NCBI GenBank assembly: GCA_902635845.1
Contig: CACPPK010000001.1
Span: forward strand, 1 to 64,000
Reading direction: 5' to 3'
DNA from: an uncultured Pelagibacteraceae bacterium
GTDB taxonomy: Bacteria; Pseudomonadota; Alphaproteobacteria; Pelagibacterales; Pelagibacteraceae
DNA length: 64,000 bases
Shown piece by piece: positions 47,543-54,813 of the stretch. Each line of letters opens with the position of its first letter. Positions within the stretch are counted from its first letter, which is position 1. The position numbers and the translations under genes are program-made. The notes under the pieces are model-generated. The model saw nothing but the letters and a program-made list of their open reading frames with translations, made no database searches and was not told the origin of the DNA.

Positions 47543-48127
47543 ATGAGCGATTTTTTACAATCAATAATTGATAGAGATCCTGCAGCAAAATCTAAATTAA
47601 GTTTAATATTAACTTACCCAGGTGTTAAAGCAGTATTCTTTCACAAACTAGCAAACTTTTTTAGTACTGCTAAATTTCATTTAATTGCAAGAATCATTTC
47701 TCAATTTTCAAGATTCTTAACTGGAATTGAAATTCACCCAAATGCAAAAATTGGAAAAAATTTATTTATAGATCATGGGATGGGTGTTGTTATTGGTGAG
47801 ACATCTGAGATTGGTGATAACGTAACTATTTACCATATGGTTACATTAGGCGGTATTGCTCCAAGTATTAATTCAAATGACCAACGAAATATGAAAAGAC
47901 ATCCTACTATAAAAGAAGATGTAGTTATTGGTTCAGGTGCACAAGTATTAGGTCCTGTAGTCGTTGGCAAAGGTGCTAGAATTGGAGCAAATGCAGTTAT
48001 TACTAAAGATGTTTCAGAAAATGCTGTAATGGTTGGAATTCCTGCAAGAAGTGTTGGAATAGCAGATAGTGAATTTAAACCTTATGGAATTACGTCTGAT
48101 AGTGATAAAAAATCAGATAATGAGTAA
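47543..48127 (+). CDS. cysE: Serine O-acetyltransferase
   Basis: [44 protein letters not shown] left-handed beta-helix repeats. Confidence 0.92.
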
Positions 48128-49121
48128 TACCCAAAACGATTTTATTTCTGGAATAGGAAATACTCCATTAATTAAACTCAGAGCAGCCTCTGAAATTACT
48201 GGGTGTAACATTTATGGAAAAGCAGAATTTTTAAATCCTGGAGGATCTGTAAAGGATAGAGCTGCACTTGCTTTAATAAAAGATGCACAAGAAAAAAAAT
48301 TGATTTCTAAAGGTGGGACTGTTGTTGAGGGAACAGCTGGTAATACAGGAATAGGTTTGGGTCTTTTAGGAAATTCTCTTGGTTATAAAACAATAATTGT
48401 AATGAATGACAATCAAACACAAGAGAAAAAAGATTTACTTAGAAACCTTGGAGCTGAATTAAGATTAGTTCCACCTAAGCCTTATAAGGATGATAACAAC
48501 TTTGTAAAAGTAGCAGCGAGACTTGCAGACGAACTAAGACCTACAAATAATAACGGGGTTATTTGGGCTAACCAGTTTGATAATACTGCAAATGCTAAAG
48601 GACATTATGAAGGCACAGGTCAAGAAATCTGGGAACAAACCGATGGTAAAATTGATGGTTTTGTTTGTTCTTCAGGTACTGGAGGCACAATTTCAGGTGT
48701 TAGCAATGCTCTGAAAGAAAAGAATAAAGATATAAAAATTTATTTATCAGATCCAAAAGGTTCAGCTCTTTATAATTACATTAAAAATGGTGAACTTAAA
48801 TCGGAGGGTGGTTCAATTACTGAAGGTATTGGTTCGAGTAGAGTGACTGCTAACTTTGGTGAGGCCAAAATTGATGACGCATATTCAATTGATGACCATG
48901 AGGCTCTGCCTATTCTATATGATTTAATTCAAAACGAAGGTTTAAGCCTAGGTACAAGCTGTGGGATAAATATTGCAGGAGCAATTAGAATGGGGAAAGA
49001 GTTAGGGCCAGGAAAAACTATTGTAACTATTCTTTGTGATAGAAGTGACAAATACGCAACTAAAATGTTTAATAAAAAATTTTTAGAAGAAAAAGGTTTG
49101 CCGATACCTAATTGGTTTTAA
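48120..49121 (+). CDS. cysK: Cysteine synthase
   Basis: [30 protein letters not shown]; start ATG at 48120 overlaps the cysE stop. Confidence 0.92.
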
Positions 49122-49534
49122 ATATAAATTTTATCAGCTAATCCGTAAGTAAGAATAGCACTTAAAATCGTAAGTACTCCAGCAGCTATTACACCTTCAC
49201 TGTTAGTCTTTTCAGTGTGTCCAAGTTTATTTATGTAAATGGTATAAATACCGAATATTAAGTACATTAAATTTTGAACAAATACTAAATTAAAGAACGC
49301 CCAAGTTCCATTTACCCCACCATCTCTAACAAACATAATATAAAGAGCCATTAAGAAAGACCCAACAAAAGGAGCTCCAAAAAATCTTGTAATCACAGCT
49401 GCCGAATGATCGATGTTATATTGATCCATAAAACTCTTTGTTCCAACTATAGCTCTAAAAGCATAAACAGCATAAACAAGGAAATGAACAATAAAAATTA
49501 TTAGATAAACAATTCCGTTGAATTTTTCGATCAT
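49118..49534 (-). CDS. Small integral membrane protein, unknown function
   Basis: 138 aa, ~4 hydrophobic segments. Confidence 0.65.
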   Translation of the reverse strand: MIEKFNGIVYLIIFIVHFLVYAVYAFRAIVGTKSFMDQYNIDHSAAVITRFFGAPFVGSFLMALYIMFVRDGGVNGTWAFFNLVFVQNLMYLIFGIYTIYINKLGHTEKTNSEGVIAAGVLTILSAILTYGLADKIYI

Positions 49535-49633: not shown

Positions 49634-49680
49634 CTCCTTAACAATTATGTAACAGTGTTATGTTAAATAACTTTAAGGAG
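49634..49680 (+). promoter_or_regulatory. Candidate Shine-Dalgarno-sequestering 5' leader structure
   Basis: CTCCTTAA (49634-49641) complementary to TTAAGGAG (49673-49680), overlapping the SD of ATG 49687; nested 7-bp hairpin 49647-49653/49657-49663 (two G-U pairs). Confidence 0.4.
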
Positions 49681-49686
49681 GTAAAA

Positions 49687-50163
49687 ATGAAAAAAATTTT
49701 ATTTTTAATAATATTTTTAACGATCTCAAATTACTCGTTAGCAGAATCAGGAAAATTTAATGCTGCTGGAGCAGGATCATGGTCATTAAATGCGATGGAT
49801 GCTGGAAACGGAAACATGAGTATTACTTATGATGGTAATGCTGGACTAATGGATAAAGAACCTGGAAGTATTTTTGATAAATCTACTATGCATTGCATTG
49901 GTGGGTTAACATTGGTAGCTGGAAAGTTTGATGATGAAACGGGTATGTGTACTTTTTATCTAATGGATGGAGAAAAGGTTTACATAAATTACAAAGGTAA
50001 AGGAACTGGTGGTCAAGGTGGAACTGGTACTTTTGTTATTATTGGTGGAACTGGGAAATATGAAAATATTACTGGAAGCGGTTTCTCAAGCAGACAAAAT
50101 ATCAGAGGTAAAGCTGGTATGGCTCACTCTATGAATCAAATGAGTGGGGAGTACACTTATTAA
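49687..50163 (+). CDS. Secreted protein with allene-oxide-cyclase/dirigent-barrel-like features
   Basis: Signal peptide MKKILFLIIFLTISNYSLA; GGTGKYENITGSG; RBS AAGGAGG. Confidence 0.6.
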   Translation: MKKILFLIIFLTISNYSLAESGKFNAAGAGSWSLNAMDAGNGNMSITYDGNAGLMDKEPGSIFDKSTMHCIGGLTLVAGKFDDETGMCTFYLMDGEKVYINYKGKGTGGQGGTGTFVIIGGTGKYENITGSGFSSRQNIRGKAGMAHSMNQMSGEYTY

Positions 50164-50196
50164 AAAGAATAATAAAATAAAAAAAAGGAGAAAAAA

Positions 50197-50478
50197 ATGA
50201 AAGATATATTGGTAGTAGGAAAATTAAAAGAAGGAGCCTTTGAAAAGTTTATGGGCTTTATGCAATCAGATGAGGGTATGGCTGAAAGAAAAAAAGTTGC
50301 AGATGTAACAAAAACAATAGCTAGTGTTTCACCTGATAAATCAACAGTAATGTTTAAAATTGTAGTTCATGACATGGCAGCACTTCATTCATTCATGGAT
50401 GGATCAAATCCAGTTTCAAAACCTATATTTGATGAAGTAATGACTGGTTATGAAATTTACGAATTAGCTAAAGTTTAA
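50197..50478 (+). CDS. Small protein of unknown function (GYD/ABM-like size and pattern)
   Basis: 93 aa, AAAAAAGGAG RBS, tight operon context. Confidence 0.6.
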   Translation: MKDILVVGKLKEGAFEKFMGFMQSDEGMAERKKVADVTKTIASVSPDKSTVMFKIVVHDMAALHSFMDGSNPVSKPIFDEVMTGYEIYELAKV

Positions 50479-50555
50479 TAGAAGAACTGAGGCTACAAAA
50501 GCTGACTAATCTCTGATAGACTTTGTAACTAAATTATTAGTAACAAGGAGGAAAA

Positions 50556-50906
50556 ATGGCTGGAATAGAAGTAAAAAGTTTTGATAAAGCAGATGAAGTA
50601 AATGATAATTTTAATAATGCTAAAATTGAAGCAGTCAAAGTTGGAAACCAAAGATTGATGAAACTTACTTTGCAACCTGGTTGGCAATGGTCAAAAGATA
50701 TAAAGCCAACAGTTGGTGGTGAAAGCTGTCAGGCTACACACCTTGGTATAATTATCTCAGGTGCTGTTTGTGCAAAACATAATGATGGAACTGAACTAAC
50801 TTATAAAGCTGGTGATGCATATTCAATACAACCAGGTCATGATGGATGGGTTGTTGGAGATAAACCAGCAGTAGTATATGAATTTCATGGAATGTGGGGT
50901 GAATAA
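50556..50906 (+). CDS. Cupin-domain protein
   Basis: LTLQPGWQWSKDIKPTVGGESCQATHLGIIISGAVCAKHNDG...GDAYSIQPGHDGWVVGD. Confidence 0.8.
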   Translation: MAGIEVKSFDKADEVNDNFNNAKIEAVKVGNQRLMKLTLQPGWQWSKDIKPTVGGESCQATHLGIIISGAVCAKHNDGTELTYKAGDAYSIQPGHDGWVVGDKPAVVYEFHGMWGE

Positions 50907-51229
50907 TGTCAAAATTTTATGTAATTGGAAAGGCAAGTCCTGAGTTATTAAAAAAAATGCATGCTGACCCTGCTGCAGATAGAGGTGCAGTAATGAAATC
51001 CATGTGTGACAGCTTAGGAGTAAAAGCTATAAGTTACGAATGGTTAAGAGGACGTTTTGATGTTCTTTTCTGTGTTGAAGGTGATTACGAAAGTGTTCTT
51101 GCTATGAAAGTAACTGTTTTAAATAGTGGAATGATGTCAGATCTAATGGTTCATGAAGTATTTGATTACAACAGTGCATTTAAAAAGGCAGCTGATGTTT
51201 CAAAAAGTTATAAAAAACCAGGTGAATAA
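50906..51229 (+). CDS. GYD-domain-like small protein
   Basis: ISYEWLRGRFDVLFCVEGDYESVLAMKV resembles the GYD pattern; start overlaps cupin stop. Confidence 0.55.
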   Translation: MSKFYVIGKASPELLKKMHADPAADRGAVMKSMCDSLGVKAISYEWLRGRFDVLFCVEGDYESVLAMKVTVLNSGMMSDLMVHEVFDYNSAFKKAADVSKSYKKPGE

Positions 51230-51244
51230 ATAGAAAGGAATAAT

Positions 51245-51565
51245 ATGTCTATATTAGAAAAATATAGTGCTGCTTTGAAAAATAAAGATGAAGCAGTAAT
51301 GAATGAGCTTTTGCATGATGATTTTAAATTCATAATGCACAAGTCAGGAAATGTTTTAACCAAAAGTGATGTTATCAAATGGGCGATGAGTGGTGATATT
51401 AATCAAGATAAGGTTAGAATTGTCTATGAAAATGACGAAGTTGGTATTCATCATGCGTTTGTAACATTTAACGATGGTAATGTTGAGGCGGTAATGGCAG
51501 TTTATAAATATGACAATGGAAAAATTGTTAGTTTAGAAACTGGTGCTACACCAATGCCAAAATAA
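51245..51565 (+). CDS. NTF2-like/SnoaL-type small protein
   Basis: YSAALKNKDEAVMNELLHDDFKFIMHKSGNVLTKSDVIKWA. Confidence 0.7.
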   Translation: MSILEKYSAALKNKDEAVMNELLHDDFKFIMHKSGNVLTKSDVIKWAMSGDINQDKVRIVYENDEVGIHHAFVTFNDGNVEAVMAVYKYDNGKIVSLETGATPMPK

Positions 51566-52156
51566 GTGAGTGAAATTGATTTTTATTTTTCGATAGGTAG
51601 TACTTACACCTATCTTTCTGTAACTAGAATACTTGATGTTGAAAAACAGCATCAAGTAAAATTTAATTGGAAACCCTTTTCAGTTAGAGCAATTATGAAG
51701 GAAATGAATAATATCCCATTTCCAAAAGACAAAATTAATAAAGTCAATTACATGTGGAGAGATATTGAGAGACGTGCAGAGGGATATGGTTTTTTTGCTA
51801 AGACACCAGTTCCCTACCCTTTATCAGAATTCGATTTAGCAAATCAAATAGCAATCTTTGGTTTTGAAAAAGGCTGGGGAGAAAAATTTGTAATGCTGAG
51901 TTATAAAAAATGGTTTCAAGAAGGCAAAGAACCTGCAATTGAACCTAGTATTTCTGAGGTTTGTAATGAATTAAATTTAAATAAGGATGATATAATATCA
52001 GAGGCAAAATCAGAAAATATAGAGGCAAAATATAACGAAAACACAAATTCAGCTCGTGAAAATAAAATTTTTGGTAGTCCATCTTTTATAGTTAAAAATG
52101 AAATCTTCTGGGGAGATGATAGAATGGAAGATGCTATTAAATGGTCTCTTAAATAA
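51566..52156 (+). CDS. DsbA-like/2-hydroxychromene-2-carboxylate isomerase family protein
   Basis: IDFYFSIGSTYTYLSVTRI...FNWKPFSVRAIM; IFGSPSFIVKNEIFWGDDRMEDA; GTG start abutting previous stop. Confidence 0.82.
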   Translation: MSEIDFYFSIGSTYTYLSVTRILDVEKQHQVKFNWKPFSVRAIMKEMNNIPFPKDKINKVNYMWRDIERRAEGYGFFAKTPVPYPLSEFDLANQIAIFGFEKGWGEKFVMLSYKKWFQEGKEPAIEPSISEVCNELNLNKDDIISEAKSENIEAKYNENTNSARENKIFGSPSFIVKNEIFWGDDRMEDAIKWSLK

Positions 52157-52194: not shown

Positions 52195-52527
52195 ATGAGT
52201 CTTGCTAGTTCATATTTATTTTTAGGTATTGCAGTATTTTTGGGTGTTACTTCAAACAGTTTTGCAAAAAGTGCTGAGGGTTTTACACTATTTGTTCCAA
52301 GTTTAATTACAGCAATTACAATTGTATTGTGTATGTATGCACTTTCATTAGTAATGAAAAATATTCCTATGGGAATTACTTACGCTTCCTTTGCAGGTTT
52401 AACAATTATTGCAACTGTAGTGGTTGGAGTAATTAGATTTAATCAAGTACCTAATTTATACTCATTAATTGGTTTAGCTTTTATTATTGTTGGTGTTTTC
52501 ATGGTCAACTTGTTAGGTAATAATTAA
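52195..52527 (+). CDS. SMR (EmrE-like) family membrane protein, atypical
   Basis: YLFLGIAVFLGVTSNSFAKSAEGFTLFVPS...LIGLAFIIVGVFMVNLLG aligns gaplessly to EmrE TM1 as recalled. Confidence 0.8.
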   Translation: MSLASSYLFLGIAVFLGVTSNSFAKSAEGFTLFVPSLITAITIVLCMYALSLVMKNIPMGITYASFAGLTIIATVVVGVIRFNQVPNLYSLIGLAFIIVGVFMVNLLGNN

Positions 52528-52529
52528 TT

Positions 52530-52757
52530 ATGATTTCAAAAAAATACGCCCAAACTTTATTTATGATTTTAATGTCTTTAGGTATGAGTGTTATTATGAG
52601 TGGTGTAGTTGTAGCTGTAAATACAGGTATCTCAGATGGTTTCTTTTTTAGATGGGGATATTCTCTAATGTTTGCATATCCAATTGCTTTAATTGCTGCA
52701 TTTACATTAGCGCCTTTAATAAGACCTTTAGTTAATAAAATTGCATCAAAAGAATAA
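52530..52757 (+). CDS. DUF2798-like small membrane protein
   Basis: 75 aa; ISKKYAQTLFMILMSLGMSVIMSGVVVAVNTG...FAYPIALIAAFTLAPLIRPLVNKI. Confidence 0.75.
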   Translation: MISKKYAQTLFMILMSLGMSVIMSGVVVAVNTGISDGFFFRWGYSLMFAYPIALIAAFTLAPLIRPLVNKIASKE

Positions 52758-52759
52758 TC

Positions 52760-53095
52760 ATGAAACCATTATTAGGATATTTATTTTTAGCTAATGGAAT
52801 AATTTTTGGTATCGCATCAAATAGTTTTGCAAAAATTTCCGAAGGATTTACAAAACTAACTCCTTCTGTTCTATGTATTTTGTTTATGTGTATTACAATG
52901 TTTTCTATTGCAAAAGCCATGTCAGCACTACCAGTTGGATTTGCCTACTCTACTTACAGCGGCTTAACAGTAACTGGAGTTGTCCTTTTTGCTGTTTTAA
53001 AATTTAACCAAGTACCTAATTTTTATGGAATTATTGGAATTATTTTAATTATAATTGGTGTAGTAATGGTTAATTACCTTGGTCGACTAAACTGA
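52760..53095 (+). CDS. SMR (EmrE-like) family membrane protein, atypical
   Basis: YLFLANGIIFGIASNSFAKISEGFTKLTPS...IIGIILIIIGVVMVNYLG. Confidence 0.8.
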   Translation: MKPLLGYLFLANGIIFGIASNSFAKISEGFTKLTPSVLCILFMCITMFSIAKAMSALPVGFAYSTYSGLTVTGVVLFAVLKFNQVPNFYGIIGIILIIIGVVMVNYLGRLN

Positions 53096-53446: not shown

Positions 53447-54010
53447 TTACCAAGAAGAATTTGGGCCTTTTAAAAATTCTATTTCTTCCTCTGTAGACTC
53501 TCTTCCTAAGATTTCATTTCTATGAGGATATCTATGAAATTGTCTAACTACTTTTGTATGATCTTGCCAAAATTTTTTTATTTCATTGTAACCTTCGTGC
53601 TCTCTTAAATATTTATTTAACAAATAATAAGCCATTTCATGATCACTAATTTCTTCACTGTGAATAAGTGGTAACAACATAAACAATCTTTGATTTACAT
53701 TCATAGCTTCTAAATAACCAGAATAGACCGCATCATTAACAATTAATCTAGTTTTTTGATCTTGAGCAAAAGATTTTTTATCATTTCTGAACATATTACG
53801 AGAGAACTGATCAAAAAGTATAACTAAAGCTAAACAGCTCATGGGGTTGTCCTGCCAATCATCATATTCATTTTGGCAAGCAAGTTCATAATCTTTTAAA
53901 AAATTATCTCTAATTTTTTGATCAAACTTTATATCTTTTTTGAAACGCATCTCAGAAGGAGTTTCTTTAAACCAGAAATCTAGAATAACTTGTGCTCTTT
54001 CTGATATCAT
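53447..54010 (-). CDS. DUF924 family protein
   Basis: ILDFWF...DWQDNPMSCLALVILFDQFSRNMFRNDKKSFAQD. Confidence 0.85.
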   Translation of the reverse strand: MISERAQVILDFWFKETPSEMRFKKDIKFDQKIRDNFLKDYELACQNEYDDWQDNPMSCLALVILFDQFSRNMFRNDKKSFAQDQKTRLIVNDAVYSGYLEAMNVNQRLFMLLPLIHSEEISDHEMAYYLLNKYLREHEGYNEIKKFWQDHTKVVRQFHRYPHRNEILGRESTEEEIEFLKGPNSSW

Positions 54011-54813
54011 TCAGCTAATGGTTTTAATAATTTTAGAATCTTTTTGTGATTAGCTTTATTATTTGAGACAATAATATTTCCCCCAACAACAGGATTTTTG
54101 TTGCCCCAAGTAGTTACTATCGCTCCACTTGCTCTCACGATTGGCATAATCGGGTGAATATCCCAAATCTTATTTGCACATTGTGAAACCATTTCAAGTC
54201 TACCTTCTGCTAATTGGCAATATGTCAATGCATCAAAACAAGGAAATTGCATTCGTTTAATAAATTTTTTAATTTTAGATTGCTGTTTTAAAGTTAATTG
54301 ATTATGAAAAGCAGCAGCTAATTTTGCGTTAGCAAAATTTAATTTACTATTAACTTTAAGTTTTCTTTTTTTATTATTTTCAAAAACATACGCTGTATTT
54401 TTGTTTACATTTAAATAATATTTTCTCATTTTAGGAAAATTTGCTAATCCTAAAACTGGTTCTCCATTATAGTTTAGTGAGATTAAATTGCTCCAACTAG
54501 GATTACCTACAACATATGATCTGGTTCCATCAATTGGGTCAATTACCCAGGAAAACTCACTTTTAGTATTTTTATGACCATACTCCTCACCTATAATTTG
54601 GTGATTTGGAAATTTTTTTGAAATTTTAGATCTTATAAATTTTTCAAATGCTTTGTCAGATGTGGTTACTGGGTCATAACCTTTACCTTTCATCTTATTA
54701 GTTATCTTGAATGGTTTATCTAACTTAGCGTAGTAAAATCTTGTTAAATCTTTAGCAAGTTGATTTAAAAAGCTTGCATATATTGGATATTTTTTTGTAT
54801 CAAATTTTTTCAC
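54007..54813 (-). CDS. Inositol monophosphatase family (possibly histidinol-phosphatase type)
   Basis: DPVTTSDKAFEKFIRSKI; IIGEEYGHKNTKSEFSWVIDPIDGTRSYVVGNPSW. Confidence 0.85.
   Translation of the reverse strand: MKKFDTKKYPIYASFLNQLAKDLTRFYYAKLDKPFKITNKMKGKGYDPVTTSDKAFEKFIRSKISKKFPNHQIIGEEYGHKNTKSEFSWVIDPIDGTRSYVVGNPSWSNLISLNYNGEPVLGLANFPKMRKYYLNVNKNTAYVFENNKKRKLKVNSKLNFANAKLAAAFHNQLTLKQQSKIKKFIKRMQFPCFDALTYCQLAEGRLEMVSQCANKIWDIHPIMPIVRASGAIVTTWGNKNPVVGGNIIVSNNKANHKKILKLLKPLAE

Follow-up and report, generated by a model that had tools for sequence, protein, structure and literature searches.

In the small multidrug resistance (SMR) family, the central glutamate (E14 in EmrE) is held to be essential for proton-coupled transport, and to our knowledge the only subtype described without it is the little-studied group of lipid flippases. 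What, then, do SMR-type proteins do that have lost this residue but belong elsewhere in the family? The question is raised by a locus in a 64,000 nt stretch of DNA (in the following called the window) from an uncultured Pelagibacteraceae bacterium, a member of the SAR11 bacteria, which are among the most abundant in the ocean. An initial reading of the letters, without database searches (the sequence-only reading), had described here two SMR-type proteins (A and B) flanking a DUF2798 protein (D), and suggested a heteromeric complex working without the canonical carboxylate, with DUF2798 as a partner.

This gene arrangement was confirmed. Three open reading frames of 110, 75 and 111 amino acids follow each other on the plus strand at distances of 2 bp each (Table 1), and all three exceed the respective Pfam cut-offs. 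A and B matched Multi_Drug_Res (PF00893; gathering cut-off 23.7) with 60.0 bits (E-value 3.3e-16) and 58.8 bits, respectively, and D matched DUF2798 (PF11391; cut-off 23.5), a family without assigned function, with 65.4 bits. Two long helices are predicted for D (residues 4–32 and 38–72), a fold search of the PDB with this protein gave no significant match, and we found nothing in the literature on DUF2798 that bears on the present subject. The predicted model of A, of moderate confidence (pLDDT 71, pTM 0.47), consists of four helices. Its best 13 matches in Foldseek were all Gdx-Clo or EmrE structures, with TM scores up to about 0.8, which assigns A to the SMR fold within the confidence of this model. 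By homology and fold, A and B are members of the SMR family. Among the NCBIfam models, those of Qac-type exporters scored best (up to 80 bits), yet both proteins remained far below the cut-off of every SMR subtype; ArnE reached 15.6 and 15.4 bits at a cut-off of 92.

Table 1 Coordinates of the features in the window and in related loci (L numbers).
Feature	Position	Strand	Basis or remark
SMR-like protein A, 110 aa	52195..52527	+	ORF call, Pfam, gapless EmrE alignment
DUF2798 protein D, 75 aa	52530..52757	+	ORF call, Pfam; optional neighbour
SMR-like protein B, 111 aa	52760..53095	+	ORF call, Pfam, gapless EmrE alignment
Codon of Gly17 in A (GGT), EmrE Glu14 position	52243..52245	+	computed from ORF start
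Codon of Gly17 in B (GGT), EmrE Glu14 position	52808..52810	+	computed from ORF start
Secreted 167 aa, 93 aa, cupin-like, GYD-like, SnoaL/DUF4440-like and DsbA/HCCA-isomerase-like genes	49660..52156	+	upstream, same variable island
Island boundary: hexapeptide acetyltransferase (CysE-like) and PLP enzyme (CysK-like)	47543..49121	+	
Island boundary: inositol monophosphatase-family gene	54007..54813	-	
DddP-like gene and E14-less singleton SMR	L152:186-1827 and L200-L222		other small-genome family
E14-bearing SAR11 SMR, carnitine/betaine clusters	L196:5706-6041, L263:4962-5297, L264:4984-5316, L265:5020-5355		nearest relatives of the E14-less clade

Using EmrE (PDB 3b5d) as the reference for residue mapping, phmmer alignments were gapless over residues 6–108 of A and 7–109 of B and agreed exactly with the earlier alignments of TM1 and TM3. 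E14 corresponds to Gly17 and T18 to Asn21 in both proteins, W63 to Phe66 in A and to Tyr66 in B. Both proteins retain the tyrosine switch Y60 (Tyr63), which is invariant in A-type and B-type proteins. In the GxG fulcrum of TM3, G65 is kept and G67 is replaced by Thr or Cys in these two types (GLT in both window proteins); with one fulcrum glycine lost, A and B could perhaps no longer alternate. Further changes in both types are Y40 to Ile or Met and F44 to Met, while G90 and G97 are kept. The residues G14, N18 and F63 (EmrE numbering) occur in 109 of 109 readable A-type proteins, and G14, N18 and Y63 in 104 B-type proteins, compared with E14 and W63 in all 51 sequences scoring best with EmrE. 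Acidic residues are absent from the TM segments of 106 A-type proteins and of 101 out of 105 proteins assigned to the B bin; the remaining four are probably E14-bearing relatives, judging from the residue table. Aligning the proteins differently, so that an acidic residue would fall on position 14, was ruled out because there is neither a gap nor an acidic TM residue. The loss of the canonical carboxylate, as claimed from the letters alone, therefore stands.

We compared A and B with the known SMR systems. They share with the Qac exporters (EmrE, QacC/G/H/J) the length of about 110 amino acids, the four TM helices, the gapless alignment and Tyr60, but differ from them at E14 and W63 as well as at positions 18, 40, 44 and 67. 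The lipid SMRs ArnE/ArnF, in which position 14 is often Asn, likewise lack the central Glu, keep the tyrosine switch and are thought to be possibly uncoupled (PMC9574504), which provides a precedent for the loss of E14 in A and B. In contrast to ArnE/ArnF, however, A and B have Gly at this position, score near noise with the lipid-type profile and branch from E14-bearing, Qac-like sisters, and no arn genes were recognised nearby on inspection. EbrAB, YkkCD and MdtIJ are likewise encoded by pairs of neighbouring SMR genes that apparently share an operon, but combine Glu14 with opposite charge biases, neither of which is found in A and B. Finally, the SMR of the carnitine island (L060, L263, L264 and L265; PMC12421898) resembles A and B in a K-x-x-Q-x-P-N loop and in the TM2 pattern, but keeps Glu14 and Trp63 and occurs as a singleton in carnitine/betaine catabolism clusters. 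Judged by these residues and profile scores, A and B lack residues that define the proton-coupled subtypes and do not match the profile of the lipid subtype.

In a maximum-likelihood tree, A (support 86/85), B (87/87) and the singleton L152 formed one E14-less clade with a support of 100/99. The next branches outward are L060 and L047, both with E14 and W63, although long branches, notably those of L152 and L155, blur the exact placement. The simplest history would be a single loss of the glutamate from an E14-bearing SMR, followed by duplication into A and B. When copies were assigned by their profile scores (>140 bits for those that are full-length and E14-less; three at 115–124 bits are of the E14-bearing sister type), we found an E14-less copy in 76 of the 79 sampled genomes of this SAR11 genus and at least two copies in 54. 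The median dN/dS was 0.040 for A, 0.051 for B and 0.113 for D; A and B are thus under strongly purifying selection. These values rule out pseudogenes and, together with the fixation of the E14 loss across the clade, decayed pumps. A single E14-less copy (G153:C16:20643-20948) contains an internal TAG stop and is likely a recent pseudogene or an assembly error. Beyond SAR11, we found members of the E14-less clade in a single further family of the class (f32), whose genomes mostly measure 1.0–1.4 Mb. Outside SAR11, all readable top relatives in a phylum-wide sample of 399 genomes carried E14 and W63, and L152 alone lacked E14 among the loci read in a class sample of 385 genomes; both searches refer to the top-scoring relatives. 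No relatives were found in the viral contigs searched.

The tight 2-bp spacing suggests that A, D and B might assemble into a single obligate heteromer in the membrane, A and B being fixed facing opposite ways and DUF2798 serving as an accessory subunit. Conservation of the trio at close range is consistent with this: among the 80 closest loci, A-D-B occurs in 60, A-B without D in 15 and A-D without B in 5. Across the 79 genomes of the genus, however, the trio is contiguous in any order only 30 times (SDS 14, DSS 15, SSD 1; S, E14-less SMR; D, DUF2798), next to 18 cases of SS, 9 of DS, 6 of SD, 21 solitary S and 22 solitary D. Of 67 DUF2798 copies, 46 are at most 300 bp from an E14-less SMR, and the other 21 are farther away or on a different contig; D is missing altogether in 11 of the 76 genomes with E14-less SMRs. 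The SMR genes are also found apart: the single-contig genomes G012 and G063 have B but no A, G039 has A but no B, and in G005 both lie about 28 kb apart on opposite strands. Moreover, when two SMR genes are adjacent, the Arg/Lys biases of their products are opposite in >95% of cases, with centres near +4 and −4 (PMC9574504). For A and B the bias is near 0, with (0,0) in 70 of 87 A-B pairs, including the pair in the window, and such a balance is, at the level of sequence, the signature of dual-topology proteins. Since the biases are near 0 and the two genes also occur separately, pairing of A with B is not required, and an obligate heterodimer was rejected; D, being often absent or distant, is optional. 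An obligate complex is therefore quite improbable. From the sequence-only reading, the part on the lost carboxylate, which takes canonical coupling out, is retained, and the heteromer with DUF2798 is supported only in part, not as an obligate complex. A looser functional link is possible because D lies near the SMRs more often than expected at random and recurs in varied orders, but the variable island around these genes, full of small same-strand genes, by itself promotes such neighbourhoods.

Hints at the substrate came from relatives of A and B. In 25 loci of the f32 family, from 23 genomes, a DddP-like gene is directly followed by a lone E14-less SMR (N18, Y63). These loci fall into two sequence clusters, between which the SMRs are about 79% identical, and the two open frames are separated by −8 to +22 bp. 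DddP is a lyase that splits DMSP into acrylate and DMS (PMC4108388). The DddP-like protein matched the DddP structures 4rzy (302 bits) and 4b28 (288 bits), and its alignment retains the residues named in PMC4108388, i.e., the six metal ligands Asp295, Asp297, Asp307, His371, Glu406 and Glu421 as well as Tyr366 and Asp377. The SMR frame of L152 has no ATG, GTG or TTG start near its N-terminus, only CTG, ATT or ATA, which suggests translational coupling or a non-standard start.

The E14-bearing sister, in turn, adjoins TauD/BBOX-like, GMC dehydrogenase, BKACE and EamA genes (L196, L263, L264, L265), in most of these clusters together with a 3-hydroxyacyl-CoA dehydrogenase gene. This matches an island of Arctic SAR11 described as carnitine-related (PMC12421898), in which an SMR gene accompanies those for carnitine dehydrogenase and gamma-butyrobetaine dioxygenase; this was the only paper that our literature search on SAR11 and small multidrug resistance retrieved, and its SMR is, as far as gene order shows, of the E14-bearing type. 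According to work cited in PMC13300293, EmrE exports glycine betaine and its E14C mutant is inactive. Taken together, the DddP-like neighbour, the carnitine clusters and betaine export by EmrE suggest that the ancestral substrates were small metabolites of the osmolyte type; by analogy, this substrate class may have been carried over to A and B.

From these results we suggest that A and B, paralogues within an E14-less SMR clade found in streamlined marine Alphaproteobacteria, act as uncoupled SMR facilitators for a small, probably osmolyte-related metabolite, a proposal to which we give a chance not far from even. Each subunit has the four-helix SMR fold with tyrosine switch and balanced charge, and given the charge balance of dual-topology proteins, antiparallel A2, B2 and A-B dimers would all be possible. 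With no carboxylate in the membrane, we infer that such a dimer cannot exchange protons for cations and, lacking the Glu14 site, would be either an uncoupled facilitator or non-transporting; the strong constraint on the pocket positions favours the facilitator. The dimer would work by alternating access and pass a small neutral, zwitterionic or anionic metabolite, for instance a breakdown product of DMSP, betaine or carnitine from osmolyte catabolism, driven by the metabolite's own gradient or the membrane potential. As a ligand, the lost Glu is probably replaced by the invariant Asn21, which lies one helical turn away, and DUF2798 would be a frequent island neighbour rather than a required subunit. 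Several observations weigh against this proposal: the link to a DMSP lyase belongs to the sister lineage and not to A or B, neither DMSP nor carnitine genes were recognised in the window island, the replacement of the second fulcrum glycine could mean that alternation is lost, and DUF2798 lies close to E14-less SMRs more often than expected at random. That the clade constitutes a fifth functional SMR subtype, arisen by one Glu loss, with the tyrosine switch kept and an invariant Asn in TM1 instead, and working as an uncoupled facilitator for neutral, zwitterionic or anionic compounds linked to the breakdown of marine osmolytes, for example the cleavage of DMSP, is a wider claim that we regard as possible but doubtful. 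A natural clade with one E14 loss and strong selection thereafter would amount to an evolutionary experiment on minimal transporter coupling, and the E14-bearing and E14-less sisters make the coupling question directly testable. Should the link to DMSP or betaine be true, a transporter would also have been identified for what is formed from a major class of marine sulfur and nitrogen compounds.

In a more specific form of the facilitator proposal, the proteins would export acrylate or another anion, and the loss of the carboxylate would have converted a cation/proton antiporter into an anion uniporter that runs on the membrane potential. This idea fits the position of the E14-less singleton right behind the DddP-like gene in 23 genomes, the formation of acrylate by DddP and the disappearance of all acidic TM residues. 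However, no DMSP lyase adjoins A or B, the DddP homologue was identified from its sequence, and the TM core of A has gained no cationic residue, and we consider this form unlikely. Alternatively, A and B could be glycolipid flippases working like ArnE/ArnF, possibly uncoupled proteins (PMC9574504) with which they share the missing E14 and the tyrosine switch; A and B also have an Asn in TM1. Against this stand the ArnE score of about 15 bits compared with up to 80 bits for Qac-type models, the Gly instead of Asn at position 14 and the location of the nearest E14-bearing sisters in carnitine/betaine gene clusters; furthermore, no lipid-A modification genes were recognised near the inspected loci, including 14 diverse SAR11 A/B loci. 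Glycolipid transport thus appears rather improbable.

Because a canonical SMR with E14 and W63 is also encoded in most SAR11 genomes, and mixed dimers of wild-type and E14Q EmrE have been prepared and solved (8uoz), A and B might instead be modulatory subunits that dimerise with it to form asymmetric pumps with one glutamate. Yet the A/B-type genes occur without a canonical SMR in G001, G005, G009, G021, G025, G028 and G031 (all incomplete genomes), the f32 singleton is paired with the DddP-like gene and not placed beside a canonical SMR, and the pocket positions 18, 40, 44 and 67 changed together, as expected for a distinct pocket. We consider a modulatory role very improbable.

The genes for A, D and B lie in a hypervariable island that extends from cysE/cysK-like genes to an inositol-monophosphatase gene (window:47543-54813) and was also found in L180-L192, L197 and L232. 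Its gene sets vary and consist of small, same-strand genes such as DUF1330, SnoaL-like, GYD-like, cupin, DUF2798 and SMR genes. No DMSP or carnitine gene was recognised in the window island, and Rfam searches of the window region and 11 related loci gave no guanidine or other riboswitches. At the cysK end, the window encodes a 138-aa membrane protein on the minus strand (49118-49534), whereas in most related islands its homologues are on the same strand as the island. Two divergent DUF2798 types lie close together in L019 (904-1131 and 1257-1478), one 64% identical to D of the window, the other 38% identical and like the type common in other SAR11. L182 (8394-9383) and L195 (8159-9145) contain an arginase-family gene that is 89% identical between both loci, along with an EamA transporter gene; one of the two loci has E14-less A-B nearby, the other, from a different genus, an E14-bearing SMR.
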